A stretch of 64,000 nt of DNA from Dromiciops gliroides (taxonomy: Eukaryota; Chordata; Mammalia; Microbiotheria; Microbiotheriidae), in NCBI RefSeq assembly GCF_019393635.1, contig NC_057861.1:543130211-543194210 (forward strand), read 5' to 3'. Of the stretch, positions 2,791-48,625 are shown piece by piece (positions within the stretch are counted from its first letter, which is position 1; every line of letters begins with the position of its first letter). The notes under the pieces were generated by a model. It did not search any database and was not told where the DNA came from. It was given only the letters and a program-made list of their open reading frames with translations. A program made the translations under genes and the position numbers.

Positions 2791-2834
2791 AATTAATATA
2801 TATATATATATATATGTATACACACATATAAACC

Positions 2835-3955: not shown

Positions 3956-3959
3956 AAAA

Positions 3960-4235
3960 TCCAGGCCAGTGTTTTATTTCTAATAGCAAAAAACTGGGAG
4001 TGATCTATTATGTCCAAACACTATATAAACTGACATTATCAACATCACTGAATGTTATTATACCATAAAAAATGACAAATATGAAGAAATATGGATAAAT
4101 ATATCAGGTGATATAAAACAGAAAACAGAATTAGAAGATAATACCCCTTAAATGATTATACTAAAAACAACAATGCAACTGTCTATGTATTTAAGTGGAA
4201 AAGATTGGGAAGGAGACACAGTAAGTTGTCATTTT
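3960..4235 (+). mobile_element. Old L1 3' fragment
   Basis: It resembles the L1 end-of-ORF2 region ('agcaaaaaactgggag', 'gaatgttattataccataaa', 'aatgacaaatatgaag'). It is strongly decayed. Confidence 0.5.
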
Positions 4236-4254
4236 GTTAAGATTTATATATTCC

Positions 4255-4375
4255 CCCCCCACCACCTTTTTTTAATGTTACCTACAAAAATTTAAGCTCC
4301 TTGAGGACATGTCTTTGTACCCTGTCCTAGCACCTAGAACAGTGCCTTGCACAGAGTAGATACAAAAACTTCCAA
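4255..4375 (+). mobile_element. L2 3' end fragment
   Basis: The stretch 'aagctccttgaggacatg...gcctagaacagtgccttgcacagagtag' type sequence (4295-4365) is the classic L2 terminal segment, here slightly decayed. It is preceded by a C-run. Confidence 0.65.
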
Positions 4376-4810
4376 TTGAAGCAAGTTCTGTATATCCTGC
4401 TCAGATACTTTGTTGTTGCACAGAAGTAATTCTCGGTCCTTGAAGCCCAAGCTCTGGTTCTGAGCATAATACTGGAGAAAAAAACATATCTCTGTTCTCC
4501 TGAAAACAGGCTCGCTAATTCAGAGGGAGGCTTATCACCAAGTCAAGCAAGGAGTGGAAGGAAGGCTGCCGCAACCCTCCAAGACCACTTCTAATTTATG
4601 GAGCAGTTAAAAATCTTCACTTCTACACTGACAAAAGTTACAGATCCTTCAAATACCAACATATAAACACTGTGTGATTTTATGTTAGGTTTATTCCTCA
4701 CTTTTTGATTGTTCACATTTCTTTAAAAAATGGAAACAAACTATGCCCAACAACTGGGGAATGGATGATTAAGCTGCCATATGAATAGAGGGAAAAGGTA
4801 ACACAACGTA

Positions 4811-4960
4811 ATGAATGGCAGGCTGCTTTTCCAGTCACAAAGCTCTGGGTTCAACTTAATCTGTCAGGCAACTCACTTAGAGCAAGTTACAGATAAACTG
4901 CCCATTACATTGATGGAAGGAGATTCCACAGTTTCCTATACTGATGAAATCACAGGTATA
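4811..4960 (+). mobile_element. CORE-SINE (THER1/MIR-like)
   Basis: The sense copy has 'gctctgggttcaactt', the core-like middle, and the tail 'actgatgaaatcacaggt', which is typical of mammalian CORE-SINEs of the THER1/MON type. It splits L1 sequence. Confidence 0.6.
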
Positions 4961-5150
4961 TACCACCACCCCCCCCAAATGAAAATAATGGAATATTACT
5001 GTAGAATGAGATATGATAAATATGAAAAATTCAAAGAATAATGGGAAGGCCTATATTAAGTGGTATAGAAAAAAAAGTAGATCCAAGAGCATGTACACGA
5101 TGACTTTTGGGGGTAGGGGAGTCATGAATGTGAGGGAGCTCCAAATGTAG

Positions 5151-5340
5151 AAATTCCTCCCATTGATCTAGACTGGTACAGTACCTTGTCTAGATCTTGC
5201 CATTAGAAAGTTGCTGTTGCACTGAAGTCAGGGATTTGCCCATGGTCACAAAGATGAAATGTGTCTGAGGCAAAATCTGAACCTAGGTCTTTCTTGCTAT
5301 TCACTAAGTCCCACTACCATAAATGGGTATAGTTCCATGT
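5151..5340 (-). mobile_element. MIR-like SINE fragment
   Basis: Antisense MIR features are visible: 'gggatttgcccatggtcaca', 'tgtctgaggcaaaatctgaa' and 'cctaggtctttcttgctatt'. Confidence 0.55.
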
Positions 5341-5769
5341 GTATTTGGTCACAATCATTCTTTTTAGTTGTCTTGCTTAACCATTTTGGAGAATTACACT
5401 TGTAGGGGTGGGATGTATATTTGTATGTCTTTGCAAAACAAAATTTTTCAATAAAAAAGATTATTAAGTGTATTATTTTTAAATGGGAGAAAAAGAAAAT
5501 CCAGGTTAGGTTAATTACTATAGGATTCTAACTTTCTAGGGAAAGGAAGTTCTACAAAAGAGAAAAGAAAGGATAATACAACAGAATTTCTATCACTTTG
5601 ATTATAAAATAATATGATAGAATAAATAACTTGTTATCATCTGGGATTTTCTGAATAGTGAGCACTCACATTAGTAAATGAAAACTGTGTTGGAAAAACT
5701 CTGTAATCTGTAATTTGACAAAAAATCTACTGCAAATGATATGGCACAAGAGACTAATTTAGTTCTATG

Positions 5770-6010
5770 GTGTTCCAGAGCTAGAACAAGGAAGTGGAAA
5801 AGGCTGAATTTTGCTCAATATAAAGGAGAACTTTCTGATAATTAAAGCTATCTAACAAGGGAATGGGCTACCTCATGAAGCAGTGAGATGCTTATTGCTG
5901 CAAATATTCAAATAGAGCCTGAAGGAACACCTCTCTGAATGTTATATATGAGACACAGATGAGTAACTGAACTGGAGGGTCCCTCCTTGAGTCTAAGATT
6001 CTGGAACTTT
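5770..6010 (+). mobile_element. L3/CR1 LINE 3' fragment
   Basis: The order 'gggctacctcatgaagcagt', 'tcaaatagagcctgaaggaa' and 'gagggtccctccttgagtct' then 'aagattctgg' follows the L3/CR1 terminal consensus (shift from edge-quality phrase to 'ggtcccttcca..ttctg'). Confidence 0.55.
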
Positions 6011-6117
6011 TCAAATTACTAAAGAGGCAAAATGACAAGTATTAAACAAAACACCATTCTACATATCTTTGGTGGAGAATGGATTTAAATTCCTTGTTAT
6101 GTTTAAGTTAATATTAA

Positions 6118-6318
6118 AATTGGGACCGTTGGTTTTAGAGACTTAAGACAGATCATCCAGTCCAATCCCTTTCCTTTAACAGATAAGAAAATTATAGCCC
6201 AGAAAGGGTCACTGATATATCCAAGTCCAACGACAAGTGAGTAAGCAGAGCTGATACTAGAAGCCAAACTTTTTGTCTCAAGACCAATGATGTTTCTGCT
6301 GTACCAATAAGATAGCAT
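6118..6318 (-). mobile_element. MIR-superfamily SINE fragment
   Basis: 'gatcatccagtccaatccc', 'aacagataagaaaattatag' and 'cccagaaagggtcactgata' match the antisense side of a common mammal-wide MIR-type element. Confidence 0.5.
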
Positions 6319-6627
6319 TTCAACCTGTATAAACTAAACAAAGGGTAAGTGAGGGAAGCTCAGAAACTTGCTGGGAAACAAGAAATCCAACCTACCCATT
6401 GCCATGGATAACCACAAATTGGATAAGGATTGATTGCATTTCACATAACCCCAGTACAGATTCTGTGGCATTATTTCTAAGAATAAATAAGTCTTAATGG
6501 AACAAGACTGCTGTTTTCCTATGGTATAATCTTTACTAAGATGTGGAGAGAAAAAACTGAATTTTTAATGAGCAAAATAAAGATTAGTGGATCTAGTATA
6601 CTTTTAGTTTTATAAAAACTATATAGA

Positions 6628-7432: not shown

Positions 7433-7590
7433 TTATTTTCCTTTTTTCAATTTGTTAACATGAAACCTTACTAGGCTTTCTATAGCTGTATTACCCATTT
7501 GCTGAGCAAGTTGCAAAGGTGTCATTTCTCCCATTGGAATTTCTGGATTAGCTGCAGCTTTTAGCAACAAATAACAAATATCCAGATGTC
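7433..7590 (-). CDS. Final ankyrin exon with stop codon
   Basis: The acceptor is a T-run ending ttag. With the G carried over from the previous exon it reads GHLDICYLLLKAAANPEIPM, GEMTPLQLAQQMGNTAIESL and VRFHVNKLKKGK, then TAA. GHLDICYLLL and MTPLQLAQQMG complete the previous repeat and start a further one. The predicted protein would be about 479 residues if counted from the ATG at 27128 with the 10.6-kb exon open. The stop codon overlaps an AATAAA hexamer (minus strand, near 7432-7437), too close to the stop to be an obvious main poly(A) signal. A weak internal donor-like GTAAGG exists, so I cannot exclude a further exon. Confidence 0.82.
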
Positions 7591-9037: not shown

Positions 9038-9218
9038 CATAAATGATAGCAAGATGTAAAGCTGTTGCTCCATTACACTGGTGATTAGGGGCATTGACAT
9101 CAATTTCAGCAAAACGCAAAAGAAGAGACATGATATCTGTCTTTCTAGTGTTGACTGCAGCATGAAGTGGAGTATTTCCATTTTCTGCTGCTTGGTTTAC
9201 ATTGAGAACAGGAGGCTC
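9038..9218 (-). CDS. Ankyrin-repeat exon
   Basis: This 181-bp exon lies between a strong acceptor (tttctcttccag) and a TATG/gtaaag donor. It reads EPPVLNVNQAAENGNTPLHA, AVNTRKTDIMSLLLRFAEID and VNAPNHQCNGATALHLAIIY. The motifs NGNTPLHAAV and NGATALHLAI are textbook ankyrin-repeat signatures. It enters in phase 0 and leaves in phase 1, which suits the exon at 7433..7590. Ankyrin repeats mediate protein-protein binding, but the partner cannot be told from sequence. Confidence 0.88.
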
Positions 9219-10574: not shown

Positions 10575-10736
10575 CATGTCCAAAAAGTACTCCAGAATCT
10601 TTGGTTGATTATATATGACGGATAAAAATATCATATTTCGGTTGTTCTCATCTACAACATAGAGGTCAATCTGGTGGCTTTTTATTAGATAGTGTAAGAC
10701 ATCGATGTATCCCAACTGAATGCACTGAAAAGCTCT
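10575..10736 (-). CDS. Ankyrin-repeat exon with an apparent frameshift
   Basis: The acceptor is ccttttag and the donor ATG before gtcagt. From the expected phase it reads AFQCIQLGYIDVLHYLIKK, a typical second half of an ankyrin repeat. It is then out of frame after a run of seven A and would stop within about nine codons. One frame back, it continues SHQIDLYVVDENNRNMIFLS and VIYNQPKILEYFLDM, again good ankyrin sequence, and leaves in phase 0 for the exon at 9038..9218. An exon one base longer (eight A) would be fully open. The run is preceded by the third base of an ATA codon, which gives the pattern A-AAA-AAA. This may be an assembly error in a homopolymer, a real inactivating change, or slippage. 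Confidence 0.7.
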
Positions 10737-18559: not shown

Positions 18560-19290
18560 AAGTAGAGCTGCATATTCTTTGACAAAGTGAAAGTTGGGCA
18601 TACACCTCAAAGAGAACAAAGGAAGAAAGATTTATATCTAGAAAAATACTTATAGCAGCACTTTTGGGGGTAGGAGTGTGTGTGGGGGGAGGCAATGAGG
18701 GTTAAGTGACTTGCCCTGGGTCACACAGCTAGTAAGTATCAAGTGTCTGAGGCCGGATTTTAACTCAGGTGTTCCTGAATCCAGGGCCGGTACTTTATCC
18801 ACTGTGCCATCTAACTTCCCCCAGCCCTTTTTATTATAACAGAGAACTGGAAAATAAGAGAGTACTAATCAACTCAAAAATGGCTAACAAATTATTGTAT
18901 ATGAATGTAAATGAATGCTATTTATTGTGCTGTAAGAAATTATGAAAAGGACGGTTTCAGAGAAATCAAAGACGACTTGCATGAAATGATGTAGAGTGAA
19001 ATAAGAATAATTTCTATATAGCTAATCTAGTTGGAGACAAGACAGACACATGAGAAGAATTTATACAATGATTACAACATCATAAAGGAAAACGATTGTA
19101 AAAGGTTCAGTAACTAATCAATAGAATGACCAGCCATGACTCCAGAAGACTGATGAGGGTAATGTGTGGATTTATTTTGCTTTAATATGATCATTTATTA
19201 CAGGGGTAAGCAGGGAGCTAGTGGCAGTGACACACACAAAAAAAATGTCAATGAAAAAAAATTTTAAATGCATAAAAGGGAAAAGAAGGA
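18560..19290 (+). mobile_element. L1 3' fragment split by a SINE
   Basis: 'ttatagcagcacttttgg' before and 'tgtgctgtaagaaattatga', 'gcatgaaatgatgtagagtg' after the SINE are L1 ORF2-end and 3' UTR phrases. Confidence 0.7.
18665..18821 (-). mobile_element. WSINE1-type SINE
   Basis: Antisense copy inside L1, from a G/T-rich tail to ccatctaacttcccc. Confidence 0.88.
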
Positions 19291-20000
19291 AGTTCAGAGA
19301 GAGATACAGAAAAGTAGGACAGCTTTGGAACTAATACTTTGAATTTATTATACACTTTTAAAAAACCAAACTGTAAATAATAAACATTGTTTTATATACA
19401 ATTATCTTTTTCTGCCCTTACTTGTATATGGAAATGTTCATGTTGGTCAAAGTTGGTCAAGTTCATGATAAATAAAATTGGCATTAAAATCTTGAAAAAA
19501 AATGTTTTAATTGGGCAGTGTTCTAAAATTGTGTATCATAACAGTGTATTTACAGATCCCACAAGAACTTTCAAGAAAATATGATGAAATAGCCTCAAAT
19601 TTCCTGAGAATGAGAATTCTCTCAACTATCTCCTGAGGATTTCAGACTTGGTCGAGAAACCCTAACATCCTGCTTACGAGTACAAGCTGTATGTATTTTT
19701 TGGTAGAGTACAAATATGAAATCCTAATTTTATGAGAAGGCATTTCACCGGGATAAGGCAGAAAATGGGAAAGCAAATCACAGGACAAAAGCTTGTGACA
19801 TCAACAAGAATGCTCTAGGAGGATATATCTTCTGAAGATATGCTTTAAATAAGTAGGAAATTTCTGATATTTTAATCATCCACAGAACTTCCTGATCTTG
19901 CAAGCTTCTCCACACTGTAGGGTACATGATCTTCTTATGAATCATCCTAGATGTGATTAACTGCCATGTTCTGATGCACAGATGTGTCATCATTTATCCC
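19290..20000. other. Unassigned intron sequence
   Basis: A minus-strand frame at 19778..19993 shows no family motif. No repeat is recognised. Confidence 0.3.
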
Positions 20001-21054
20001 AATATACAACTTCATAATTGAATCTTTTCTTTAAAAGACTTTAGAGAAAAAACTGACAGCAAGTCACTTAACTTCTGTAGTGTCACAGGAAATGCTCAGA
20101 CTTGAAAGTCACAGAGCAAGTCAAAAAAAGGGGGGGGAAAAAGAGAATGGAAGCTTATTTTCCCAATGGGAAGTAAAATGTAAAAGGACAGTGAATTTTA
20201 TATAATAAGCTCAGTTTTAGGTTATATATACTCCAAACTACTAGTTTTCTGAAAAAAATTTTTCCACATATGATTTTAATATCGAAGTGGCATTAGTGTC
20301 ACTTAACAATTATAGGAAGAACTTTCAAAATAAGATGTTTGTGGATTATGAAGATCTTGAGTCATTCATTTTTTGTTTAATTAAATGATGAATGGGTCTC
20401 ATCCCAATTTCCACAGTAGCACAGAATGGAAATTAGAAGAAACTAGAGTTGATTCAACAAGAATTATTTTCAAGCTCTAAGCAGTACTCATAAGTTACTA
20501 AGAAGTGAATCACTTTCAACCTAAACATTTTGTTTTCCAAATTTACACTATAAAAATTCTAAAACTATTTAAAAACAAAGCCCCATTAGAACCATAATGT
20601 ATAGAGTTGATAAACAATTAAAAAATCTTAACGAAAGCAATATTTGACATAAAGCTACATTTCAATCATTTTAACACACTCAAAGATGAGGATTTTGTAA
20701 AAGTTAGATAGTACATATTGTATGCCAATTTACTCTTCAAATGTTTCCAAGAAGCCCTCATAAAAGGCCACACATCTAAAGGGGGGAAAGTATTCCTAGA
20801 AATCCAGTGACCAATGGATGAATTAGTGTGGAATAGCACCCATTTTTGGTAGGAAAAAGATGTGTAGAAAAGGAAATTTAGTGAGGCAAACCAACTATGG
20901 AGATATATGAATGAGAGAAAAAATAGTAAAAACAAATACATTTCAGAAAAGATCTATATGCTAATGTAGAATATCAACATTTTACATTTAAATTGTTTTA
21001 TATTTTAATGATTCTCCATGCAAAAGAAACATACATAATATTTTTCCAACACAC

Positions 21055-21060
21055 TTTATT
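21055..21060 (-). promoter_or_regulatory. Candidate poly(A) signal for a long SMIM10L1 3' UTR
   Basis: AATAAA on the minus strand is followed by GTGTGTTGG and then TGTATGTTTCTTTTG, a plausible GU/U-rich downstream element. It lies about 6.1 kb past the start of SMIM10L1 exon 2, at the edge of a repeat-poor block. It could end an unspliced SMIM10L1 transcript that does not proceed to the ankyrin exons. Confidence 0.4.
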
Positions 21061-22715
21061 TTCCTTTTTAAAAAACACCTCAACAGAACTATCCATTGAC
21101 TTTGATTTAACAGTTACAATGTTACTGTAAGGTTTTATACATTACACTCAACAAAGTCCAATCCATATAAGGTAAATGCAGTTTTTGTTGTTATGAATTT
21201 GGATCTAAGAACACCAGAAAAAAAACAACACAAGGCCATCACTTAGGCAAATAAGCTGAAAACTGAATGCCTGGCTCCCTCTTGTGGCACAGATTAGCAT
21301 TATCACAAGTCCTTTATAGCATTCAGTATTGTGGAATGCACTATTGCAAAAAGGACTACATTTACATATGAACAATAAATCTTAAAGTTACTACAGAAAT
21401 AAACTGGCATTTCATTAAAAAATGTGTTAGATAAACTACTAAAAATCAATACAAAGTTGTAAACATCTTTTTGTGTAGACAAAAATCAACCTTAATTCAA
21501 TGTGGCTGCTTACGAGTGCTCTAAATGAACACGTAAAGTCTATACAAATTCACCAATTATGGCTTGTTCCAGTTGTTTGAGCTAAATAACCAACTTGAAT
21601 TTGGTGGGAGTAACAAGAAAAAAAAAACACTTCAGAATTTACAATGGTAACAATTAATGATAAAACTTGATAATCTCATGTGATTAAATATAACACAGGG
21701 TTTGGCTTTGACCCTAACAAAGAGTTACTAAAATCAAACAGCATGGGAAGAAAATCAGATTATATGCCTAGTACAATCCCTCCCTCCCCACAGAACTAAA
21801 AAAAAAAAACCAAAGAAAACCCACCAAACAACAAACTTGACATTAAGCAAGAATATTTGACAAAAGAAATCTTATTTTCATGCTAAGAGGTGGATTAAAA
21901 AAGATATCCAAATATGAAAAAGCCAAGGACGCTTCCTCTTTTACCAATGAAGAAAAAGTCTACTGAAGAGGATTTTTAAAAAATATGTATCCTTTATACA
22001 TTTGATAAAGAGTATTACCACATGAAGGATATTCACTCAGTATTATTATACTAGGCATTTTTATCCCTATGGTTTCCCCTCCCATGACTCCTAAAGGACT
22101 CACATCAAAAAGAACAGCAATTGTATTAACTTTACTTCATCAGTGTTAGGGTTGACAGATTAAATTACTTTGGTCAACCTATGAAAAATAAAATTCAATC
22201 TATCCCTTCTGAGACAATTTATTTAAAAAATAAGTTGTGGTGGAATATTTATGACTTGAAGCAAATTATGACAAAATGAGCTCTGTTCCTGATAGAGATA
22301 TCCTTCCAGAATTCTTTGACTGAGCTATAAAATAAGATTGAACCTTTTCTGATTAAAAAAAAAATTCTTTACTATAATGACACTGGGAAAAGGAGCTGAT
22401 TTCAAAGGAACCTCCAAGTGTGGTTGTAACATTGTATACTGAAAAAGCATCAGATTCTAAAGTATTCAGTCACCAGACCATAATTTTGGAAAATTGGCAA
22501 AAAATGTAAAGAAATTCCATTATGAGCTCTGCTGCTTGAATGGACATCAGAAATACAACAGTTTAAATAACATACTCCTCAAAAAATTCTATAAAAGATG
22601 AAAACTTTTTATTCCAGTTGTAATTTCTGCTGCCTTTTTTATTTTTACATAAATAATGACCTGAAACCAGTGAGCATGTGAGAGGCACCCACCAGTCACT
22701 TAGAATACAAAATCT

Positions 22716-22864
22716 GGGGCAGCTAGGTGGCGCAGTGGATAGAGCACCAGCCCTGGAGTCAGGAGTACCTGAGTTCAAATCTGGCCTCAGACACTTAACA
22801 CTTACTAGCTGTGTGACCCTGGGCAAGTTGCTTAACCCCAATTGCCTCACAAAAAAAAAAAAAA
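22716..22864 (+). mobile_element. WSINE1-type SINE
   Basis: Full sense copy. Duplications agaatacaaaatct lie at 22702..22715 and 22865..22878. It is the only SINE in the repeat-poor block. Confidence 0.94.
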
Positions 22865-23235
22865 AGAATACAAAATCTATTTATATTTTTAAAAATTATC
22901 CTTTTCTTGAACCATTCCCAGAAGATGACTGACATTGTTTTTAGTTCTTAATCCTTGCCAAAGTTAGCAAAAGCAAACATTCTGAAGGACAGCTACAAGT
23001 ATAGCAAACATTAAGTACCTATGATCTAGTAGGAATAAATCTTCTGAAGGTTTTATAAGGAATAAAACTATCAAAATAACCTGAGATTTTAAATGAAATA
23101 AGATCCTGAAAACACACGGACACTGTATAATTATATTTTAAATTTATTTTTAAAAGGAATGGTGCATCATTTTTGTAATCTCCCATATGATAAAGGGCAT
23201 ACTCTTAAAAGTCAGAACAAGGACAGTTTTCTTAC

Positions 23236-23336
23236 CTTTCTTTAAACGGATCACTTTTTTGTTTTCTAGTAGCAGAAACAGAACTCTTGCTAGGTAGTCC
23301 AAGAGGAGGCTGGCTACTGACCACTGCCTTATAAAA
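23236..23336 (-). CDS. Ankyrin-protein linker exon
   Basis: This 101-bp exon has an acceptor (gaaatttag) and a strong donor (GAAAG before gtaaga). In phase 0 it reads FYKAVVSSQPPLGLPSKSSV then SATRKQKSDPFKE with two bases left over. It follows the upstream exon, which ends ...NLWHAVVK. The serine- and lysine-rich stretch looks like a linker. Its last bases (AG) join with the first A of the exon at 10575..10736 to make an arginine codon, so the two could be spliced directly, though I cannot exclude another exon in the 12.5-kb gap. Other frames are less convincing. Confidence 0.68.
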
Positions 23337-26291
23337 CTAAATTTCAAAAAGCATCAAACAGTTAACCAGAGTGTTTTATTTTGTTAATACTGTGATGATC
23401 CACAGCTGCTCTAGAAAAATATTCCCTATGTTATTAGGTAACCAAACAATTTAAAAATAAAATTTACCATATATTCTATACAGAAGTACAGTCAATCTGA
23501 AAATGCTATAAAACTACAGCTTGTGCTCTATCTAGTAAAAGACATTCCATTCATCAGGAATTTTTCAGTCTTAGTAGGTAATGAATGTACTGTCAAGAAT
23601 AATTCCCATGTCTGACTTTTATCAAGGCTATAAAGTTCCATACCAACTAATTCAAAAGATTTTTGTTTAAAAAGTATTTTCCCCAAATACAACAAGCCTC
23701 AGAGCCAGTAAAGGCATATACTTGTATTTTTAAAACCATCTTGTAAAAATGAATGAAAGCTTATTCCATTGAGATTATTTTCCCAAGCATTTTTCCTTGG
23801 GAGTCATGACCACTGAAATTAACTTTTTTTCAGTGAAATTATAGTAGTGCAAACATACTGTTTTCAATGAATAGGATATGTAGGATAAAGTGCAATGTAA
23901 GTAAACATGGATTTTAACCTAATTAGACTTTCTTAGTCCTTGATAAACATGAAATGTTAAGAAGAAACGAATTAAAATTGGAAAGAAAAGAAGATTCCAC
24001 TAGGAGTAATAACTCTTTAGACTTTAAATAAGCTTCAGAATTCAGGACTACTCTGCATTCTCTGTCACTGCCAAACTGGGGAGTGGGGGGGATACTTAGG
24101 CACTATAGCTTCCATTCCTAGTCCCTCATACTTTCTACAAACTAGAGACTACAGAATTACTGCTGTTTCAGACTATAAATTCAGGCACTTTTCAGCAAAG
24201 GCCTTTATTTTCTTCTGCTCAAGATGTCAGAAAAAGAGGATTTTTTGTTTGTTTTGGTTTGGGGTTTTTTGGTTTATAAATCTGAGGAAATATACAGAGA
24301 AAATTCTAGAGAATATTTCATATTATGCATGTGAAAATATTGTAGTGTAAAAGTCCCTTCTGAATTTAGAGCAGTAAGAAATTTGGGTTAAGGCCTAAAA
24401 CATATTTTGCTTCCCTATTTATAAACGAAGCAGACATAAAAGTAATAATGACCTAATTTTTAAAAGTTAACAGTTTCTCAATTGCCTTTTATTGTATACA
24501 GGTTTGTAACTTAGTAATTATCCCTCCAATCATCTGCTTTGATGTGACAAAAAAGTGATAATGATTTCCAAACATAAACAAGAACTCCCTAATAAAAATC
24601 TTATTTTTATATATTATGTCTTAATTTAAGAAATGCTATTTAACCTTCAAAAAGTCATCCAATGAGATAATCAGTGAAGTCACTGTTAAAAAGCACACAT
24701 TTTAATAACTACAATTTCTCCAAAAGTAGTTTCTTTAACATCTATACTGTCAAGGCTATAAAGTTTGAAGTGGGTTTTATATAAATTAAATGTGGAGGCA
24801 ATTTGGCTAAGAGAATCCCACCTTAGGACTTCTGCAGTTATGGCCTCAAAGTCAAATGTTTATACCAAATAACTTTACTTTGAAAAAATGAAGAGGACTC
24901 ATACAATTTCACAGAGTTATCACCTGTATTTTTATGGACTGTCAGCCCTTGGTTTGGGTACCAACTGCTTTCCCAAACTGCCTTTTTGTTGGTATGTAAG
25001 TGCAGTATAACTACAGCTGAGCTGTCCTTAGTGCTACCAGGTAGGATTTAATACAGAAGTTTTCACATGATACAGTGACCTGCTGACAAGGATGTGTGTG
25101 GACCTAGTAACCTGTTATATTATCAAAAGAAAAATGAGCAGCTAATGCATTAAAAAGTGAAGATGACTTTTTTTTTGCCCTCCCACATTTTGAGCTTTCA
25201 TTTAAAAGGACATACTTTATTCTCACAGAGCCACAAGTCAAATTTCATTTCAGCATTGAATGCTATGTAAGAAATTCTACTGCTTTTTGGCAAATGAGTT
25301 TAATACATTTCTACAATTTACAAGGCCAATAAAATGTTTAAGAACCAAAAGAGAAAAGATCAGAAGGAAAAGAATTGGAAATGAAAAAAGAGTTTGGCAA
25401 GAAAACATTTCCCATTTTAAACCACACAAGACTACTGTTTTCCCTTATTTCATAATACATCACTGACACTGGGGAGAATCTCATAGACCTTAAATTAATT
25501 GCTGAGGCAAGTCTGTTGTTAACAAAAAGGACCTTCTGAAAATTTAAATGTTTCCATGCAAAACACATTTCAGTCCCAGAAAATTGGGCCCTTTATAATG
25601 GAAACACTGGATAGGCCAACCTATATGTAAGCTATTGCCACTCAAATCCACTTTCAAGTCACCTTTTCAATTAACGTAATACTATAAGGTTTCTGAGAGT
25701 CAGAGAAGTGACCATTCTAGAAAAGTTCAATACTGCAATTTTAATCTTAGGACCTCCATTTAAATTTTTTAAGTTTGTTAGAAAAAACATATTTAGAATA
25801 GTGAGAAAGGAAGTCAAATTTTACTGCAGGTTAAAACATTTCCACAAAACAAAAAAGCAACTTAATGTTAACCCAGCCAAGCCAGTAGTAGATGAATTTA
25901 ATTTTACATGGGTCACAAGCAAAAAGATGCTGAAGACTGAATTTTGACAGTAGCCCTTTAAAATGGAAATTGAAGAGTACCTTATGTCCAACAGTTCTAG
26001 TTAGAAATCAATGCTGGCAAAGACATTAATATTCTAAGGCTTACCCAAATCTGAATACATTAGCACAATTTAAATGCTTCAAAAAAAGTTTCCTAATATA
26101 AAAATGATTCCTTGTTTTAACAGTTGCAACAAAACAATTCCAGTTCTACTTCTTTGAAGTTTTCCTAATCACACAAACCTAAGAAGAAACTTTATAACTG
26201 TACTGTTTGCATCTAAATTCAATTAGAAACATTCATTTTAAAGAACCAATTTTATATTAAACTCACTACTGTTTCTTATAGTTGTTTTTAC

Positions 26292-27128
26292 CTTAACTAC
26301 TGCATGCCAGAGGTTTGCTAATGCAAAAGCTCGTAGAGCTAGCAACCACAGCGCTATCTGAACATTGTTTGTTGTACATTTTAAACTTGAAAGCATTTTC
26401 TTATATTCTATTGTTTGCTCTGAAGACATGAAGTTTAGATAGTCAAGGAAAACATATTTTGTTTCATCATTCAGAAGCACTTCAGGGTATTCACACAGTG
26501 TTGCAGAAAGGACGGAATGCAGGTAAGAGAGTTCCAACTCAGTGCCTACCTCCTCAAAAAATGCACTTTGCAGTTCATCCTCAAAGATTCCCATTTCTAA
26601 CCGTAGCAAGTTTACTTTTTGTTTGTATGGTAGTTCTGAGAGCCAGAAATTTGCAAACCGTACAAAATTATGTCCTACGTGACACCACTCTCTGAGGTCA
26701 TTAATAGAACAGATAGCTCTTTCCAGCCAGTCACTCACTATTGCTTCATTAATACCACAGAAAATCTTAGTAAAATGTTCTTTTGCAGGAAAAACCACAT
26801 TAACTGACTCTTTCTGAGCAGCTGCTTTAGTTGAATTTCTTCTTGATTTTCTCAAATAAGGAGGCATTTTGTTACCAATGTGTGGCAATGGATCAGCCTT
26901 ACTCAAATAATTCTTCATCTCAGAAGAGAATAGCTCTTTGTGTAAACTTCTGTTAAAATCAACTCCAGGTTTACTTGACCAGGAGCATGTGTCTGATAGA
27001 TGAGGGATCTCCTTCTGCTGTCTTATATTAACTTTACAAAATGGTTTGCTGGAATCAACATCTTCTTCTCCTTTCATGTTAATGAGGCAACTGCCCAGAG
27101 TAGTTCTTCTGTCTCTCATAGTTTCCAT
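26292..27128 (-). CDS. Second ORF in SMIM10L1 exon 2: N-terminal 279 codons of an ankyrin-repeat protein
   Basis: An open frame lies 54 bases after the SMIM10L1 stop, in the same frame and the same exon. The first ATG has a strong context (AAGATGG). Residues 1-110 look disordered and basic near the end (MPPYLRKSRRNSTKAAAQKE). Residues about 115-279 look helical and globular, with WLERAICSINDLREWCHVGH, YVFLDYLNFMSSEQTIEYKK and ALWLLALRAFALANLWHAVV. I do not recognise the domain. The coding part ends GTTAAG at a gtaaaa donor in phase 0 and fits the exon at 23236..23336. Without splicing, the frame runs on to a stop at about 26238. Its length, codon-like composition and matching exon phases argue that it is a real gene part and not a chance UTR frame. 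How it is translated is open: reinitiation, read-through, or another first exon. Confidence 0.78.
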
Positions 27129-27182
27129 CTTAGGAAGCAGTAAACCCAGAAATAGCACTTTGTTACAGTCAGCTGAATATAT

Positions 27183-27203
27183 TCAGTGGATCTCAATATG
27201 TAC
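27183..27203 (-). CDS. SMIM10L1: SMIM10L1 coding exon 2 (last six codons and stop)
   Basis: The exon opens after a tttttttcag acceptor and reads V-H-I-E-I-H-stop, the expected SMIM10L1 C-terminus, in phase 0 with the exon at 45906..46091. The intron between them is about 18.7 kb. The stop is TGA followed by ATA, not the CTA favoured for efficient read-through. The same exon continues for over 800 bases with another open frame in the same register, so this is either a long 3' UTR or a dual-coding exon. Confidence 0.9.
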   Translation of the reverse strand, partial: VHIEIH

Positions 27204-27209
27204 CTGAAA

Positions 27210-28060
27210 AAAAATGATCAAATTAATACATTTTTAAAATTATAATCTTAAAATATTGAAAACAAAAACCTAGAACAGCTTTTAAATCTTGATACTTAGG
27301 AATCAATATATTCTTTAAGAAATGTGAAAGATACTAATGGGTGACTCCTATATGTGAAAAGCACAATAGAGGTCTAAATTCAAGTAAAAACCTATCCTAA
27401 ACAAAAGAAAATACGTAGATTTCATAATCTTTAAAGGAACTGTTATTTTTAAAATTCCATTATTTACTCTTATAAGGAAACCCTCAAGCTAAATACATCA
27501 CTACATGATTTGTCCTACTCCCTCCCTCACCATTTACAGTTTAATTTCAAACTCCTTTTAAAAAAATAAGCCAGTAGGTGTTGGAAATGCTGACTAAAGT
27601 CAGGAAGTCAGCATCAACTACGCAATTATTGTAAATATCTTTTATTACCATGTCTATAGGAAATTAATGAAAAAGGAAGTTTTTAGAACAAGTCCTTCAA
27701 ATGCATCTTTGAAACATGTTTTCATGAAGGCTCTGGATGAGTTTTACTAAATATTTTTGAATTAACTTACATAGTTCATGATATCATTCATAACTTATAT
27801 ACAGCTGCCAGAAAGTGCTTCTTTTGGGGAAAGGAGAGAAAGGAAATGTAGCAGCCCTTCAGAATATCAGAACCTGGAGGCATAAATTAAACCTGAAAAT
27901 TAAGTTTAAAAGGAGAAGGCAGTAAAATGTTTCTTAAAAAGCCCCCGGACTTTCCCTGCTATCTGTAGGTACAGTTGCAATAGAACATCCACTTTTCTAT
28001 TTGAATCTGAGGATTCTGATGCATGAGGCCACCTAGGAAACTTGCAGAGACAAAAGTTGA
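27210..28060. other. First-intron sequence without recognised element
   Basis: AT-rich sequence just upstream (minus strand) of the shared exon. No exon or repeat is recognised. Confidence 0.3.
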
Positions 28061-28077
28061 CTAGCCCACACAATATG

Positions 28078-28236
28078 TTTTTTTGTTTTGTTTTGTTTTA
28101 GTGAGGCAATTAGGGTTAAGTGACTTGCCCAGGGTCACACAGCTAGTAAGTGTCAAGTGTCTGAGACTAGATTTGAACTCAGGTCCTCCTGAATCCAGGG
28201 CCAGCGCTTTATCCACTGCACGACCTAGCTGCCCCT
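28078..28236 (-). mobile_element. WSINE1-type SINE
   Basis: Full antisense copy. Duplications tagcccacacaatatg lie at 28062..28077 and 28237..28252. Confidence 0.94.
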
Positions 28237-31766: not shown

Positions 31767-31925
31767 GGGGGCAGCTAGGTGGTGCAGTGGATAAAGCGCC
31801 AGCCCTGGATTCAGGAGTACCTGCTTTCAAATCCGGCTTCAGACACTTGACACTTACTAGCTGTGTGACCCTGGGCAAGTCGCTTAACCCCCATTGCCCC
31901 GCAAAAAAAAAAAAAACACAAAAAG
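31767..31925 (+). mobile_element. WSINE1-type SINE inserted in L1
   Basis: Full sense copy. Near-identical duplications gaaaagtaggaggct / gaaaagtgggaggct lie at about 31752..31766 and 31926..31940. Confidence 0.93.
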
Positions 31926-32455
31926 AGAAAAGTGGGAGGCTAATGTATTATTGGTGGACCTATGAATTGGTTAAACAGTTCTGGAAAACAAATTGGAGTT
32001 ATACTAAAAAAATAATTAGGCTGCACACTCCCTTTAATCCAGGACTATTACTACCAGGAATATGCAACAAAATCATCAAACAAAGAACAAAAGGTCCCAT
32101 CTATACAAAAGTATTTGTAGGTATATTTATTATAGTAGCAAAGAAATAGGAGTGTGCTTCCATCAATTTTGGAATGTTATTGTGCTGAAAGAAATGACAA
32201 ATATAAAGAATTCAAAGATGACCTCTATGAACTATATATAGCAAAGTGAGCAGACCTAGGAGAACAATTTACATAATGACTACAACAATGTGAAGGAAAT
32301 CAATACTGAAAGACTGAATCAGTGCAGTTACAATTATGACTTTAGAGGATTTGGTGGTAAAGCATTTAGAATAATGGGGTGAATACTTTCAGACTTAGCT
32401 TATGTCTTGATTTGTTTTTCTTAACTGTGCTTATTTGTTAAAAGGGAGGGAGTCG

Positions 32456-40008: not shown

Positions 40009-40172
40009 GGGGCGGCTAGGTGGCGCAGTGGATAGAGCACCGGCCCTGGATTCAGGAGGAACTGAGTTCAAATCCAGCCTCAGACACTTAACAATTACTA
40101 GCTGTGTGACCCTAGGCAAGTCACTTAACCCCAATTGCCTCACCAAAAAACCAAACAAACAAACAAACAAAC
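40009..40172 (+). mobile_element. WSINE1-type SINE
   Basis: Full sense copy (head ggggcggctaggtgg) with a (CAAA)n tail. Duplications aaaatgtcagaacc lie at 39995..40008 and 40173..40186. Confidence 0.95.
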
Positions 40173-40228
40173 AAAATGTCAGAACCTTCCATAGTTTATA
40201 CTCTGCTGATATATCCTTTAAGAAACCA

Positions 40229-40750
40229 GGGCGATGTTGTGGTATATGAATGTAATGTAATAGTACTGTGTTATAAGAAACGATAAGCAAGCAGATTTCA
40301 GAAAAACCTGGAAAGATTTCCATAAACTGATTCAACAAAGCGAAATGAGCAGAATCATGAGAACACTGCACACAGTAACAGCAACACTGTACATTAATCA
40401 GCTATAAATGACTTAGCTCTTCTCAGCAATACAATGATCCAAGACTAAGGACTCATGACAGAATATGCTATCCACCTCCAGATAAAGAACTGATGGAGTC
40501 TGAATTCAGATCAAAGCATATTATTTTTTATTTCTTTTGGGGGGAGGTGGATTTTTCCTTTTGGTCAGTTTCTTTTACAACATGACTAACATGGAAATCT
40601 TTTACATGATTGTACATATATAACCTATATTAAATTCCTTACCATTTTAGGAAGGGGGAGAGAAGGAAAAAAATTTGGAACTCTAAAATGAATGTTAAAA
40701 ATTGTCTTTACATGCAATTGAAAAAAATAAAATACTATTTTTTAAAAAGG
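40229..40750 (+). mobile_element. 5'-truncated L1 3' end
   Basis: 'gttgtggtatatgaatgtaa', 'agcgaaatgagcagaatcat', 'gatccaagactaaggactca' and the 3' UTR with 'caacatgactaacatggaaa' end in an A-rich tail. Possible duplications agaaaccagg / agaaaccaagg lie at 40221 and 40762. Confidence 0.8.
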
Positions 40751-40960
40751 GGAGGGAGGGAAGAAACCAAGGTGACCCACACCACAATTAAGTATCAAAG
40801 TAGAGCTCAAGTCAATAATAAGGGATTAATTTGTGGAATGGATCGTAATCTGCTTTCCAAATTTGCTATGTTTCTGAATTCCATCTCCAAACTAGAAGGA
40901 TATCTGAGTACCTACCTCATGGGGTTGATATAAAGATCAAATAAGTGTCATAGGAATATT

Positions 40961-41160
40961 TGGGTAGCATGGTGTAGTAGAGAAAGTGCTACATTTGAAG
41001 TCAGAACATCTAAGTCCAAACCCAAGTTCTGCCACTTAAGACCTGTTTGATTTTGGGAAACCATTTACCCTCCCTAGGCCTCAGTTTCTTCATCAATAAA
41101 ATGAGGGGATTAGACTAAAATTACCTTTAAGATTAATTTTCAGATATACATCTATGATCC
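40961..41160 (+). mobile_element. MIR-type SINE
   Basis: 'gtagagaaagtgctacattt', 'ttctgccacttaagacctgt', 'ctaggcctcagtttcttcat' and 'aaaatgaggggattagacta' are MIR landmarks. Confidence 0.72.
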
Positions 41161-41404
41161 CCTATTCTGTGCCCTAAACAGCAAAGAAAGTTTCTAAGAG
41201 ACCTAACAACGTCCTACAGGATTCTCAACTTCTCCATCCTAATATCAAATTATGTCACTAAAATTCTATGCAAAAAATCACAAAAATCATCAACTCACCT
41301 CTGTCCTTTGTTCCACTGATCTGATCAGTTTCCAAATCATTCCATTTCCAACTTCTATATTTATTCCCTTGACTGCTGCCTCAGTCTAAGCATGTCATTG
41401 CTCA

Positions 41405-41545
41405 ACAGACTCCATAAATTCCTAGGATGGCACAGCTAGAGGGTACCTTACAAACAATCTGATAGTCAACTCATCTAATTTTATAGATGAGAAAACTCAG
41501 AAGATTAAGTGGGCTGCCCATGATCAACAGTTAGCGGCAGTGCCT
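41405..41545 (-). mobile_element. MIR-superfamily SINE fragment
   Basis: 'ctaattttatagatgagaaa', 'actcagaagattaagtgggc' and 'tgcccatgatcaacagttag' resemble an antisense MIR. Confidence 0.5.
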
Positions 41546-41559
41546 CCATGCCTTACTGG

Positions 41560-42010
41560 AAGGATACAAAATATTCAAAAAGCACATATTAAGTAATACA
41601 AATTCATTTCAAAAGGGAAAGAGTGCTAGTAAGGAAGAATTAGGAAAAGTCTTATGTAAGGATTGGCACCTGAATTATGCTTTAAAGAAAGCCAAAGATT
41701 CTATGAGGCAGGAATACATTCCAGACATGAGGGATCACTTGTGCATAGACAAGGGGGAGGGAGATGGAATGTCTAGTATGGGACACAGATAGCAGGCCAA
41801 ATTGGAACAGAGATTGCACTAAGGGAAATAATAAAATAAATCTAGAAATATAAGCAGGAGCAAGTTTGTGGGGGCTTTTAAATGTAAGTTTGCATTTTCA
41901 GAGGCAACACAAAGGCACTGAAGATTTTTGAGTAGGGGAGTGAAAGAAATGTTCAGATCTATGTTTTAGGAATATCAATGAAGGTACTAGCAAGGCAACA
42001 TTAGATTTCC
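41560..42010 (+). repeat. Old interspersed repeat, same family as 56260
   Basis: 'gaggcaggaatacattccag', 'gtgggggcttttaaatgtaa' and 'tttttgagtaggggagtgaa' then 'agaaatgttcag' follow the later part of the same mammal-wide repeat type. Class uncertain. Confidence 0.45.
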
Positions 42011-42829
42011 TAATTAATAAAATCAGGATATTAAGATTATCTCGAAAGAAATTTCCAGTTCTAATGGGAATACTCAGGAACTGGGGAGAGAAAAGAAGGG
42101 CTGTCTTTCTTGCCCTGATTACCTTATTTCAGGCTACAACTCACATTTCTGTAGTAGGCTGGTAGTCTGAGCATTAAACACCAAGAGGTTAAATGATTTG
42201 GGGATCATAGCGTCAACAATAACATTCAAATGGATCTCATCAATTCAGGAATTCCCTCCAAAGACGCAGACCACAACCATTCCACACTTGCCCATTCTAT
42301 ATGATTCTTGTCAATGTTGACCCACAGCTTTGCCACAAGCCATATAACCAATGTACTAAAAGCCTTCCTCTTAACATCACCAGGGCACATATAGGGCACA
42401 CTGGCTGTCCACCCATCATCTTTTCCTTTTATACAAGTTGCTTGTTGATATCTTTTACTTTTGTTGTTCTTCAGATTTCCTTACTGGTTATACGTTGCAG
42501 CTTGCTCATATCCACTATTGTCCTCTGTGTGATACTCATCTTTAGTTTTTCAGAGGCAGAAGTGTTTAATGTCAGTTAGCATCAAAAAGAAGGGCCTTTG
42601 CTATCATGGGAAGCTTGGGGTCAGTAAAAGAGCTTTGCAATTTTATCTATTTAATAGCAAGAACAGCTAATGTACATATTGTGCCTAGACAAATGGAATT
42701 AGTGATCTTTTGGTAAGTTTTTATCTTTTTTAATTACTCACTTTTGATTCCTTTAATGGTAGGGAGGAGGGAAAATGAGATGCAGGGTGAAGAGGCATAA
42801 ATAATCCAAAAAACATTTTCAGCCATGAA

Positions 42830-43165
42830 ATAAAACTACTGTGCCAGTGTTATCATCCAGAAGTGAGGGAAACAATCCAAGAACAGAGAAAGAACTGATG
42901 GTACCTGAATACAAATGGAAGTATATTTTGTATTTGCTGTTAGTTCCTTTTTCTAAAGTTTTTTTGTCTGCTATGTTTTGCATGACTACACATGTATAAC
43001 TTATATTGAATTGTTTGACTTCTTAAGGGGGGGATAGGGAGGAAGGATGAGAATTTCGAACACAAAGTTTTAAATATCGATGCTACGATTTGTTTTTACA
43101 TGTAAGGTCGGGGAAAAGTCTAAATTAATTAGTTAATTTTAAAAAAAAGAAGCGAGAGAAAGAAC
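42830..43165 (+). mobile_element. L1 3' UTR fragment
   Basis: 'agaaagaactgatggtacct', 'tgcatgactacacatgtata' and 'acttatattgaattgtttga' with an A-rich end are the L1 3' UTR. Confidence 0.68.
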
Positions 43166-43169
43166 TGTT

Positions 43170-44575
43170 TCTCTTTTTCATACAAATAAAGGCTTCTCCA
43201 TGATTAATCCTGAGTAATTTGGATGAATAATCTTCAACAAATGATCCCCTAAAAATGGAAAATTTTGCCTAAATAAGTATTGTATTTAAATGCAGCATTT
43301 TATACAGTCGTAGACCTCTAGAGTAACATTTGAATATTTCTTTCTTAGGACACCTTTAGTTTCTGAGACCGTTGCTTAGATGGGTAACTCTACCTATGCC
43401 TTGATATCAAGCCTGAGATCCTTTTTCCTTTGTTTTGAAGTTCTTACAACTTTCATTATTTTCTGTAGATAGTTCAACCTCTCCACTGCTCCCAGAGTCA
43501 CTCCCTCAAGTCTTGTTGCTCTACTCCTCCCACTTGGAACTTCCAAAAGCAATTCAAAATGTATCTGCAATATTCTCCCTCACCTAGCCTACCCAAATCA
43601 AGAAAGACTGATCAGAGAAGAAATGGCTTCTTCTACGCACCCTACCCTTGACTTATGATATAAATTAGCCCTTTTCCAGTCATGTAGTAATATTTTGGTT
43701 CTGCTGACCACTCTCTTTCCTATACCCATGCATTCACATCAGTTGACTTCTTATATTGCAAGCTTTTAGAATACAAACTTTACTTATGCTGTTGTTTCAA
43801 CAAGGTCAAGTGCGATGATGAAATAGGAAATTTTCGTCTGTGAATCCATCATCAAAACATAACAATTTCTTGCCTTTTTGTATTTTGGAAATAGTTAAGC
43901 TGACCTACCTGTTTAACCAAGAAAAAAAAAATCAAGTAAGCACAGTATTACATACATTCCCATACTAGGAAATGAAAAGTAATATTTCTAGTATAAAGCA
44001 CAGTTATTTTTAGAATTAATTAATGGGGTTTTCTTTCCTGGTTTCTTGTTATCATGAAAAATCACAAGTCATGTAAGTTTATAAGTTCCAAAAAAAAGTC
44101 TCCCTAGCTAGGTAGCTAACTGCTAAATATATGGCCTATTGAATGCCATGGTAGCACAACATGAAAGAACACTCATTGTTTTCTGCCCTAAAGTGATGCA
44201 TAATATTGTTGAGCAACATTGTTGCTCTGTTAAGAGAACTACTCCACTACACCTCTGTAGCAATTTAATATCATTGAGTTATGAATGCCAATTTACCTAT
44301 ATTGATATCAGTAAGGTACAATCAAACAAAATCAAATTGGAGCTGATGATTTTAATTTAGGTTAACATCTAATACAAAGAACCTAAGAAGAATCTGAGAA
44401 ATATTAATGTAGTTAAGAAATGAAAATTCATGACTGAGTGAAATTTCCCTCCCTTTCTCCATAGCTATGATACATGAAAAATGTTTTGAGACAAAGCAAG
44501 TATCTAAATGAAGCCATTAATCATCACTGTTTTAAAAAACAGACATAAAACCTGAAAAACATGTATTACACCTGC
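43170..44575. other. First-intron sequence without recognised element
   Basis: Mostly AT-rich sequence. No exon, RNA gene or repeat is firmly recognised. Confidence 0.3.
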
Positions 44576-44579
44576 TTTT

Positions 44580-44700
44580 AAAAAGCAGTGGACAAGTTAC
44601 TTCTCTGGGCCTCTGTTTCTTCTGTCAACCAGAGGTTTGGCCTAGATTTCTCAGGTACCTGCTAAGTCTAATGGCCTTTTATGATTTTAACCCAACAACA
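44580..44700 (+). mobile_element. MIR fragment
   Basis: 'gtggacaagttacttctctg', 'ggcctctgtttcttctgtca' and 'ggcctagatttctcaggtac' are MIR core and 3' parts. Confidence 0.55.
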
Positions 44701-45599
44701 AGTAAATTATTGGGCCAGTTAGCAAAAACAACCATGAAACATGCTCAATCAATTTGGACCCTGAAATAAGTCAATCAGTTTTATCTGAATTTTCCTGGGC
44801 TCTCTTTCAGAGTTTTCTTTGAATTCCTCAAAAGCTAATGACCCTGACAGACACTTTATAACTAGAAGGGTTCAAACAGTAAAAAAAAATGACAGTCAAG
44901 TACAGCTAAATCAAAAAGAAAAAAAAACACAAAACATAACGAATGCCCAATTAAACTTATCACTACCTAGCACCATAGCCTATAGTATTACTCAAAATTT
45001 CAGCATTCAGCTTAAGGAAACAACTAAAATATCACAACTACTCCCTGATTTTAAAAGATACCGCCACTTGAAATCCTTATGATACAAACTAGGAAGGGGA
45101 TTCATTCATTCTCAACCTTATAACAACTTTCTTTCTGAGCAGAATGAAATTGAGAAACAGTTCTTTCCCTCACCTCTGGTTAACTCTAGGACAGTAGGTT
45201 TATTTCACGACTGAAAATGTCTTTTGGATTATTTTTGCCTTTCACCCTGCATCTCATTTTCCCTCCTCTCTACTACCAAAAGAATAAAAGGGAGTAACTG
45301 AAAGGGATTAAAAATTTGCCCAAGCAACAATAACTCCATTTGTCTAGATAACTTTTTCGCCCATGAAGCCTCCCAAGTACTTCTGTCCTCACTATTTTCC
45401 AATCTAGAATTTAATTACATATTAACTCGCGTTGTTTTTATATAGCTTTATGAGAGTTACATCAAAGCATGAAGACAAGCTATTCCACTTGTGTAGCCCC
45501 ATAATGCCTTAACAGGGTGCTCAGATGGGTTCTGGTAGTGAGGCTGTCATCATTTGAGAAAAGAAAGAGGGTAAGGGAATAACAGACGTTTTACTAATT

Positions 45600-45600
<1 letters not shown>
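44701..45600. other. First-intron sequence next to exon 1
   Basis: No element is recognised up to the CpG island. Confidence 0.3.
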
Positions 45601-46690
<1,090 letters not shown>

Positions 46691-46699
46691 TCCTGGCTT

Positions 46700-48305
46700 A
46701 AGGAAAGCATACAAGCAATTTAAAACCTAAAAGCACTGTCTTGATGTACCCTCTAGTGGCTGCCTTTAAAAAAAATGGAAAGAGAATAAATATCCTTACT
46801 AACGTGATTTTGGGTTATTTTCGGTAGATGGAACAATATAGTTCTAATAAATATGAAGAATTTTTACTTTTAGAATGTATTGCAATTTCTCAAATAAATC
46901 CTGTAATATGTCAAGAATAAAGATCTTATTTTGCTATTATAATTTTAAATAAATAAGTGTACAAGGAATTTATTTGACGGTTTTACGTATTGCTTAGTTA
47001 AGCGTTTCAAGAAATGAACTGCCTTGTATCTGTGTAGACTTTGCAAAGGAGTTAATTAATATTTTGGGATTAAACTTGCACAAGTAAATCCATCCAGCTG
47101 TTCAGCAGGTGAAAACCCAATACAAATATAAATATATAGACAAAAATTAGATTTCAAAGCAAGGGAGAATTTTTCGTGTGTGGTAAATCACGTAGTACTT
47201 AGACGTCCTAGGTTTAGACCCAAGGGTTACTTGTGTAACCCATGTAAGATCTGCCACATCTTTTTTTTTTTTTTTGATCTGCCACATCTTTATCCCTACT
47301 TCCACTTGTACTGATGACTCTGATCCCTAGAGGTAAGTTGGCTATATCTTTCCCCGATCAATCTTAGGGTACCCTTGAGGAGTCAAAGGTAGTTTTCTGA
47401 TGTCATCAGCACACCTGTTGGGTGTGCTTCCATTCAAGAATCATTAAGTCCTAGAACCTTAAGTAGCTTTTAGAAAATACTACATTAAGAAAAATTGGTA
47501 CAAAATATCTGCCTTTTTCTACCATTCCTGGGGTGTTCAGGTTCTTCTTAAGCATAGCAAATCTTTGTCTATTTTTCCTTGGTTATCTTGGAAGACACAG
47601 TTGGGTACACTGCTAAAACACAAATTAGAAGATGAGAAGTCCAAACATCTTTGAAGCTTTTGCAAGCTTCCTCCAACCAATGGAGGTGAAGAGAAGAGAC
47701 CTGGCCAACTCAGAAGTTGAGACCTCTCGTCCCCCCACAAGCAATTGGTTTTTTCAGCTTAGTCTTCACTCCACTTGAATGGTCTTTTCTCACTTTGTCT
47801 TAGGGCTAATTGACTGAAATATGTTCTCAACTAGCTAAGATGCCTAGGCTAAAATGGGGTAGAATGATTTCAACCCTGCCTTTATACTCAGTCACTGGCA
47901 AAATTACTTAATCTTTCTAGAACTCAGTTACATTATCTGTACATTCAAATCTTCCCCATAGGGTTGTTATGAGGTTCAAATGAAATCAAAAAGTAAAGCA
48001 TCTGGAAAACATCCAAGCACTGTGTCAACTCATTACTCCTAATAACAAAAAAATTAAAAAAAAAAAAAACTTTGACAGCAGAACAGCCTCTAGTCACTGC
48101 TAACATCCAAACATTGTTCAGGAATTTCTACTAGTAAATTGGGTTCCAAGGTTTTTCAAAAAAAACTTCTCAAGGAATAGTATGTTGCTTTGAGGGTACA
48201 AAATATTCCATAGATCTACCTATCTTGTTACAAAGAGAATAACCAACCATGTATTCAGTTTCTCCATTTTCTTGTTTTAAGCCAAATTGTGGCTCATTTT
48301 CTTAA
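46700..48305. other. Upstream intergenic stretch
   Basis: It contains short homopolymers (a T-run at 47262-47276 flanked by a repeat of gatctgccacatcttt) and no firm gene. A small minus-strand frame at 47537..47740 has no family signature. Confidence 0.3.
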
Positions 48306-48309
48306 TATG

Positions 48310-48625
48310 AAAACCAATCAGCAAATATTAATCATCTACTATGCACCAGGTACTGGGGATACAAAGTCAAAAAAATGCAAAAATCTCGGGGGCAGCTAGG
48401 TGGTGCAGTGGGTAAAGCACCGGCCCTGGATTCAGGAGGTCCTGAGTTCAAATTTCACCTCTGACACTTGACACTTAATTAGCTGTGTGACCCTGGGCAA
48501 GTCACTTAACCTTCATTGCCCTGCCAAAAAAAAAAAAAAATCTCTGCACTCAAGGAGATTACATTCTACCAAGGGAGAAAATGTGTACATAAATAAATTT
48601 GAGAAGTGAAAAACTATCTTTAAAA
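48310..48625 (+). repeat. Old interspersed repeat split by a SINE
   Basis: 'atcatctactatgcaccagg', 'tactggggatacaaagtcaa' and, after the SINE, 'tgcactcaaggagattacat' match the family at 15812, 36925 and 56260. Confidence 0.5.
48388..48540 (+). mobile_element. WSINE1-type SINE
   Basis: Full sense copy with an A15 tail. Short duplications (aaaatctc) flank it. Confidence 0.9.

Follow-up and report, generated by a model that had tools for sequence, protein, structure and literature searches.

The 64,000-nucleotide stretch of Dromiciops gliroides DNA analysed here (the window, C1:543130211-543194210 of a host assembly of 3.30 Gb in 17 contigs, which was also used for the genome searches) almost certainly carries the orthologue of SMIM10L3/FAM220A, with one exon common to both open reading frames (ORFs). 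The fuller proposal, in which this marsupial SMIM10L3/FAM220A gene is bicistronic and its FAM220 product has a predicted ankyrin tail, is judged rather probable. The bicistronic layout has already been published; the possible novelty is an additional tail of ankyrin repeats that its second protein may have in D. gliroides.

The shared exon is the second of the gene, lies on the minus strand (26292..27203, 912 bases) and comprises the tail of SMIM10L3 followed by FAM220; by direct reading it is in phase 0 at both ends. Its parts are as follows:

27183..27203, minus strand: VHIEIH and TGA, the last six SMIM10L3 codons and stop (TGA at 27185-27183, read directly)
27129..27182, minus strand: spacer of 54 bases, 18 open codons in the frame common to both ORFs
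26292..27128, minus strand: FAM220 coding sequence, 279 codons without a stop from ATG to donor
26238..26291, minus strand: read-through end if the donor is unused, 17 further codons and a stop, giving a 296-residue FAM220 without ankyrin

The exon opens at 27203 behind the acceptor ttttttttcag/GTACATATTGAGATCCACTGA, which is in the top 1.0% of AGs, and is followed directly after 26292 by the donor AAG/gtaaaa, which is in the top 4.7% of GTs; splice sites were scored with approximate matrices, and all percentiles are relative to every AG or GT on the strand. The original prediction had called this donor good, and it is usable and fair by this measure rather than exceptional. Direct reading confirmed the remainder of that description, namely six SMIM10-type codons with their stop, the 54-base spacer, and an ATG in strong context that opens 279 codons free of stops. 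The FAM220 ATG at 27128 (aagATGG) has A at -3 and G at +4, an optimal context, and the frame stays open past the end of the domain up to the donor, with the alternative stop at 26240.

The product of the 279-codon frame matches the Pfam FAM220 family (PF15487) with 403.5 bits (cut-off 27; E 6.6e-121), residues 5-271 aligning to profile positions 1-271 of 271, although this model may already contain marsupial members and the score is no measure of marsupial-eutherian conservation. The match begins just past a second FAM220 ATG (27119), and three pieces of exon 2, taken singly, score 118.8, 131.1 and 119.1 bits against the corresponding parts of the profile. A stop-free run of 279 codons was seen in none of 300 Markov-1 simulations of the 64-kb strand under either of two composition models (0/300 in each; maxima 186 and 233), and together with the full-length match to a curated family this argues that the frame is not due to chance. 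The same simulations, the full length of the family match and the lack of any internal stop leave a practically negligible probability that the frame is a chance open frame or a pseudogene. It had been taken for the start of an ankyrin protein; its main product is instead a FAM220 protein, and what stands of the ankyrin claim is the predicted tail that follows in frame. FAM220 relatives were found neither among solved structures nor, as expected, among viral contigs, and an NCBIfam search gave no match. Scoring by codon usage, with human frequencies as the reference, could not tell coding frames from the rest, and failed on FAM220 itself too.

The upstream protein is a 68-residue product of exon 1 and the six codons of exon 2, and it matches Pfam DUF4560 (PF15118), which we take to be the SMIM10 family, with 139.9 bits over profile positions 1-64 of 64. 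Two further features belong to this end of the gene:

45906..46091, minus strand: coding part of SMIM10L3 exon 1, residues 1-62, with a phase 0 end at the donor CAG/gtaccc (top 5.2% of GTs)
45501..47000, no strand: CpG island around SMIM10L3 exon 1, the presumed promoter, with observed/expected ratios of 0.54, 0.68 and 1.11 in three 500-base bins

A search of the host genome returned one FAM220 match, at the window locus, and three listed SMIM10-family matches, of which one is strong and lies at the same locus (E 0.23 and 0.33 for the other two). Upstream, at a distance of 83-105 kb from the SMIM10L3 start, RAC1 is represented on the plus strand by four exon pieces (C1:543259581-543281180), which are 79-98% identical to human RAC1 and stand among 118 RAC-like matches listed genome-wide. 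On the other side, some 165 kb beyond the ankyrin stop, lie four PH exon pieces of CYTH3 (minus strand, C1:542971427-542972382; 83-91% identical to the query and the best of 17 matches listed genome-wide). The resulting order, CYTH3(-), FAM220(-), RAC1(+), is presumably that of human 7p22.1, where the SMIM10L3/FAM220A locus is likewise flanked by CYTH3 and RAC1. This position, together with the single FAM220 match and the single strong SMIM10 match genome-wide, identifies the locus as the SMIM10L3/FAM220A orthologue. The gene had at first been named SMIM10L1, which in human presumably lies elsewhere, on chr12; this identity was rejected, since the SMIM10 family has a single strong match genome-wide, which adjoins FAM220 between CYTH3 and RAC1, and linkage and synteny point to SMIM10L3/FAM220A. 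RAC1 was also sought inside the window, where only chance matches were seen. RAC-like and cytohesin-like exons adjoin at C5:288480905-288569531 of the host genome as well, a block that we take to be probably the RAC2-CYTH4 sister block; no FAM220 or ankyrin-tail match falls there among the matches listed in the genome searches. The one strong SMIM10-family match in the host genome compares with five human genes, according to the HGNC 2026 paper (PMC12807706), and the extra human genes may be of later origin, perhaps copies of the SMIM10L3/FAM220A message.

The two-protein layout has precedent. In human and mouse, SMIM10L3 (SAGSIN1) and FAM220A (ACPIN1, SIPAR) likewise share a transcript, on which the SMIM10-family ORF precedes the FAM220 ORF; the HGNC paper places SMIM10L3 in the 5' UTR of FAM220A and cites 2009 work on two ORFs of the Acpin1 mRNA, a layout given for mouse and human (PMC12807706). 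The expectation that one mRNA would give two proteins was therefore right in kind, and the exon is indeed common to both ORFs, but the arrangement had already been reported in these two species. The presence of the layout at the D. gliroides locus suggests that it is older than the marsupial-eutherian split and hence has long been kept. Two unrelated proteins per nuclear transcript are also described for RPP14/HTD2, SNURF/SNRPN, CERS1/GDF1 and the SLC35A4 upstream ORF, and for such known bicistronic mRNAs leaky scanning and/or reinitiation is presumed (PMC4705651, PMC5932603). Unlike these cases, which involve other families, the second frame here is in phase with the first and the exon is shared.

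From the sequence and the precedent in mouse and human we infer that the D. gliroides gene is transcribed and spliced and is probably translated bicistronically as well. It is proposed that a CpG-island promoter near 46 kb would give one transcript, of which exon 1 would encode most of the 68-residue membrane protein and exon 2 its last six codons and stop followed by the start of FAM220. Ribosomes that bypass the weak first AUG by leaky scanning, with some reinitiation, would then produce FAM220 from its strong AUG. With the 5' part of the transcript modelled from 46500, five AUGs precede that of FAM220 in the spliced model, and a purine at -3 is missing from four of the five, among them the AUG of SMIM10L3 (T at -3), so that the weak context foreseen for the first ATG and the strong context foreseen for the second were both borne out. 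It had further been suggested that the short first frame would help reinitiation; however, its 68 codons exceed the limit in a prediction cited in a review, by which upstream frames of more than 55 codons prevent reinitiation (PMC4705651), and leaky scanning is therefore the better guess. Leaky scanning would in turn be reduced by an in-frame AUG at 45926 with A at -3 and by an overlapping upstream ORF of 33 codons (45919 to 27118) that runs past the FAM220 start. The TGA closing this ORF and the second FAM220 ATG (27119) overlap as ATGA, an arrangement in which stop-start coupling is possible.

Intron 1 is 18.7 kb long and offers room for an alternative first exon, through which SMIM10L3 and FAM220 could be made from separate mRNAs, by alternative 5' exons or donors, and never from one functional mRNA. 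This is unlikely, as both ORFs are reported on the Acpin1 mRNA in mouse and human (PMC12807706) and as intron 1 is without a second CpG island, that at 45501..47000 being the only clear one in the window.

Downstream of FAM220 and on the same strand lie three exons, intact and open, that encode ankyrin repeats, and between them and exon 2 a small linker exon is predicted:

23236..23336, minus strand: predicted linker exon (101 bases; entered in phase 0, left in phase 2), with an in-frame TAG directly before it and no Met
10575..10734, minus strand: ankyrin exon 1, starting mid-repeat without an initiator Met (acceptor top 4.6%, donor top 4.2%)
9038..9218, minus strand: ankyrin exon 2 (acceptor top 1.3%, donor top 7.8%)
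7433..7590, minus strand: ankyrin exon 3 with the stop (acceptor top 0.8%), detected by Pfam in the spliced model only and not in the raw frame

In the raw unspliced frame Ank_2 scores 49.4 bits, and on the spliced model Ank_2 reaches 70.3 bits (cut-off 27.3) and Ank 62.5 bits (cut-off 21.1). Via the linker the five coding exons of the model close in frame to FAM220 plus ankyrin, 478 residues; an ankyrin protein of about 479 residues had been predicted, and an in-frame model of this kind does exist, the figure of 479 counting the stop. Among the ten matches listed in a genome search with the model, four are its own pieces and the other six are generic ankyrins at 30-41%, and bacterial and archaeal contigs yielded no relatives, as expected. 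The repeat pattern of the predicted tail is like that of ankyrin-1, ankyrin-2 and designed ankyrin proteins, a similarity that is generic only, and no close named relative was found in the collections searched, which were without vertebrate proteins. Beyond the ankyrin stop, a Pfam scan of 1-6000 and of the interval from 7200 to the stop gave no match. An AATAAA at 7437-7432 overlaps the ankyrin stop, so that the 3' UTR could be very short. The stretches WLERAICSINDLREWCHVGH and NQAAENGNTPLHAAVNTR are peptides of the predicted products of the locus.

The junction between FAM220 and the ankyrin exons is the less certain part of the model. An extra exon is needed, because the first ankyrin exon requires two preceding bases and the end of exon 2 is in phase 0; the phase fit of the exon 2 donor to the ankyrin exons that had been claimed holds through an exon such as 23336..23236 and not directly. 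The linker donor is in the top 0.26% of GTs and its acceptor is ordinary (48th percentile), with alternative acceptors at 23327 and 23309 pairing with the same 23236 donor. Among 360 open frame-compatible candidates the linker ranks 11th, and the top candidate has the same donor. When the target region was compared with three control regions, candidates scoring at least 12.94 (the top target score) numbered 1 in the target against 6, 2 and 2 in the controls, and those scoring at least 10.1 (the linker's own score) numbered 11 against 19, 7 and 10. The splice signals of the linker are at chance level. Ankyrin homology gives the linker no support either, as a search returned 20 sub-significant matches (best E 0.17) when it was included and 10 (best E 0.092) when it was left out.

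The ankyrin exons nevertheless require an upstream coding exon, since the first of them opens inside a repeat, and the linker lacks a Met and directly follows an in-frame TAG. Leaving aside the FAM220 exon, a three-frame Pfam scan of the minus strand from 10.7 to 45.9 kb yielded no further domain that passed the cut-offs, and a separate domain-bearing gene between FAM220 and the ankyrin exons was rejected on these grounds; the one sub-threshold match in that interval, PF12117 (E 0.076, 13.7 bits against a cut-off of 25), was taken as a chance match. The need for an upstream coding exon and the lack of any other Pfam domain in this interval together favour the link to FAM220. As a positive control, the same frame scan detected the first two ankyrin exons and missed the third, its sensitivity for short exons being limited, which weakens the case for the junction a little. 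On balance we lean only slightly towards a FAM220-ankyrin junction predicted in this way.

What competes with it is an arrangement in which FAM220 stops in exon 2 as in eutherians, with 296 residues and a long 3' UTR towards 21.05 kb, while a separate gene, its 5' exons devoid of recognisable domains, ends in the ankyrin exons. The in-frame stop 17 codons beyond the donor would serve such a protein, and human FAM220A ends five codons beyond the last aligned residue. Its message could end at the following site:

21055..21060, minus strand: candidate poly(A) signal AATAAA, then gtgtgttgg, where a long unspliced 3' UTR might end

The signal at 21060-21055 is followed by GT-rich sequence, but AATAAA is common in the window (165 against 129 expected, both strands) and a single occurrence is weak evidence. 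The interval 22861-28090 is free of the one SINE type searched and 18822-28090 holds one match, against 44 clusters in the window, although a single SINE-poor gap of that length is by our estimate about what chance would give. The chance-level linker also speaks for two separate genes, as does the third ankyrin exon missed by the Pfam scan, because of which an upstream exon of another gene may have gone unseen. Against this, the ankyrin exons need coding sequence upstream, FAM220 and SMIM10L3 are the only family-level coding exons found on the minus strand between 10.7 and 46.1 kb, and the window lacks a second CpG island. An end of FAM220 in exon 2 is thus a real possibility that falls short of being probable. 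Three stretches are poor in the searched SINE type (18822-28090, 40151-48388 and 1-6627), the first of which could reflect a long 3' UTR.

Under the FAM220-ankyrin reading, exon 2 would probably also be spliced onward via the small linker to the three ankyrin exons, giving FAM220 with its tail (478 residues), and transcripts that do not use the exon 2 donor would give the 296-residue FAM220 that resembles the tail-less eutherian protein. Human FAM220A, 259 residues long, is 43% identical, in an alignment of 271 columns, to residues 4 (the second ATG) to 272 here. The human protein ends five residues after the alignment, a few codons before the donor position, whereas the D. gliroides frame runs to the donor after residue 279. 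This comparison suggests that eutherian FAM220A may have lost an ankyrin tail, and a gain of the tail in marsupials would fit equally well. A literature search, with most subscription journals outside its scope, found no FAM220-ankyrin link in print among the papers listed. We tentatively put forward, as something that may well prove wrong, that marsupial FAM220 is a FAM220-ankyrin second cistron, that eutherian FAM220A (SIPAR) was truncated by a stop immediately ahead of the former donor, and that a SMIM10-ankyrin protein made by exon 2 skipping is possible besides.

SIPAR is taken here to be FAM220A. If the tail is real, work on FAM220A/SIPAR as a STAT3 repressor and acrosomal protein has used a shortened form, and the ankyrin part may reveal a binding partner of the original protein. 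SIPAR is described as a repressor that binds STAT3 and speeds its dephosphorylation through TC45 (PMC6032216).

The possibility of exon 2 skipping arises from the frame. In the spliced model SMIM10L3, FAM220 and the ankyrin tail form one frame, given the phase 0 end of exon 1 and the 912-base length of exon 2, and the sole internal TGA, at codon 69, is followed by 18 open codons. This sharing of a frame may be coincidence, with a chance estimated from stop counts at very roughly 4-10%. Since all three parts are in one frame, some transcripts could skip exon 2, which is in phase 0 at both ends like the end of exon 1, and encode a membrane-anchored SMIM10-ankyrin protein of 261 residues, or read-through of the one TGA could give a fusion of 565 residues. 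Either outcome is decidedly unlikely: two ORFs share a frame by chance in one case out of three and 18 open codons are not rare, the acceptor of exon 2 is strong, and both products depend on the unproven linker. TGA-CTA is a known leaky stop context, and the context here, TGA-ATA, differs from it. Rfam gave no match of any kind at gathering score within the window and hence no SECIS element, which also argues against read-through by selenocysteine. Elsewhere in the window, the open frames 31787-32149 (plus strand) and 58724-59086 (minus strand) presumably represent end fragments of LINE-1 ORF2, which they resemble.
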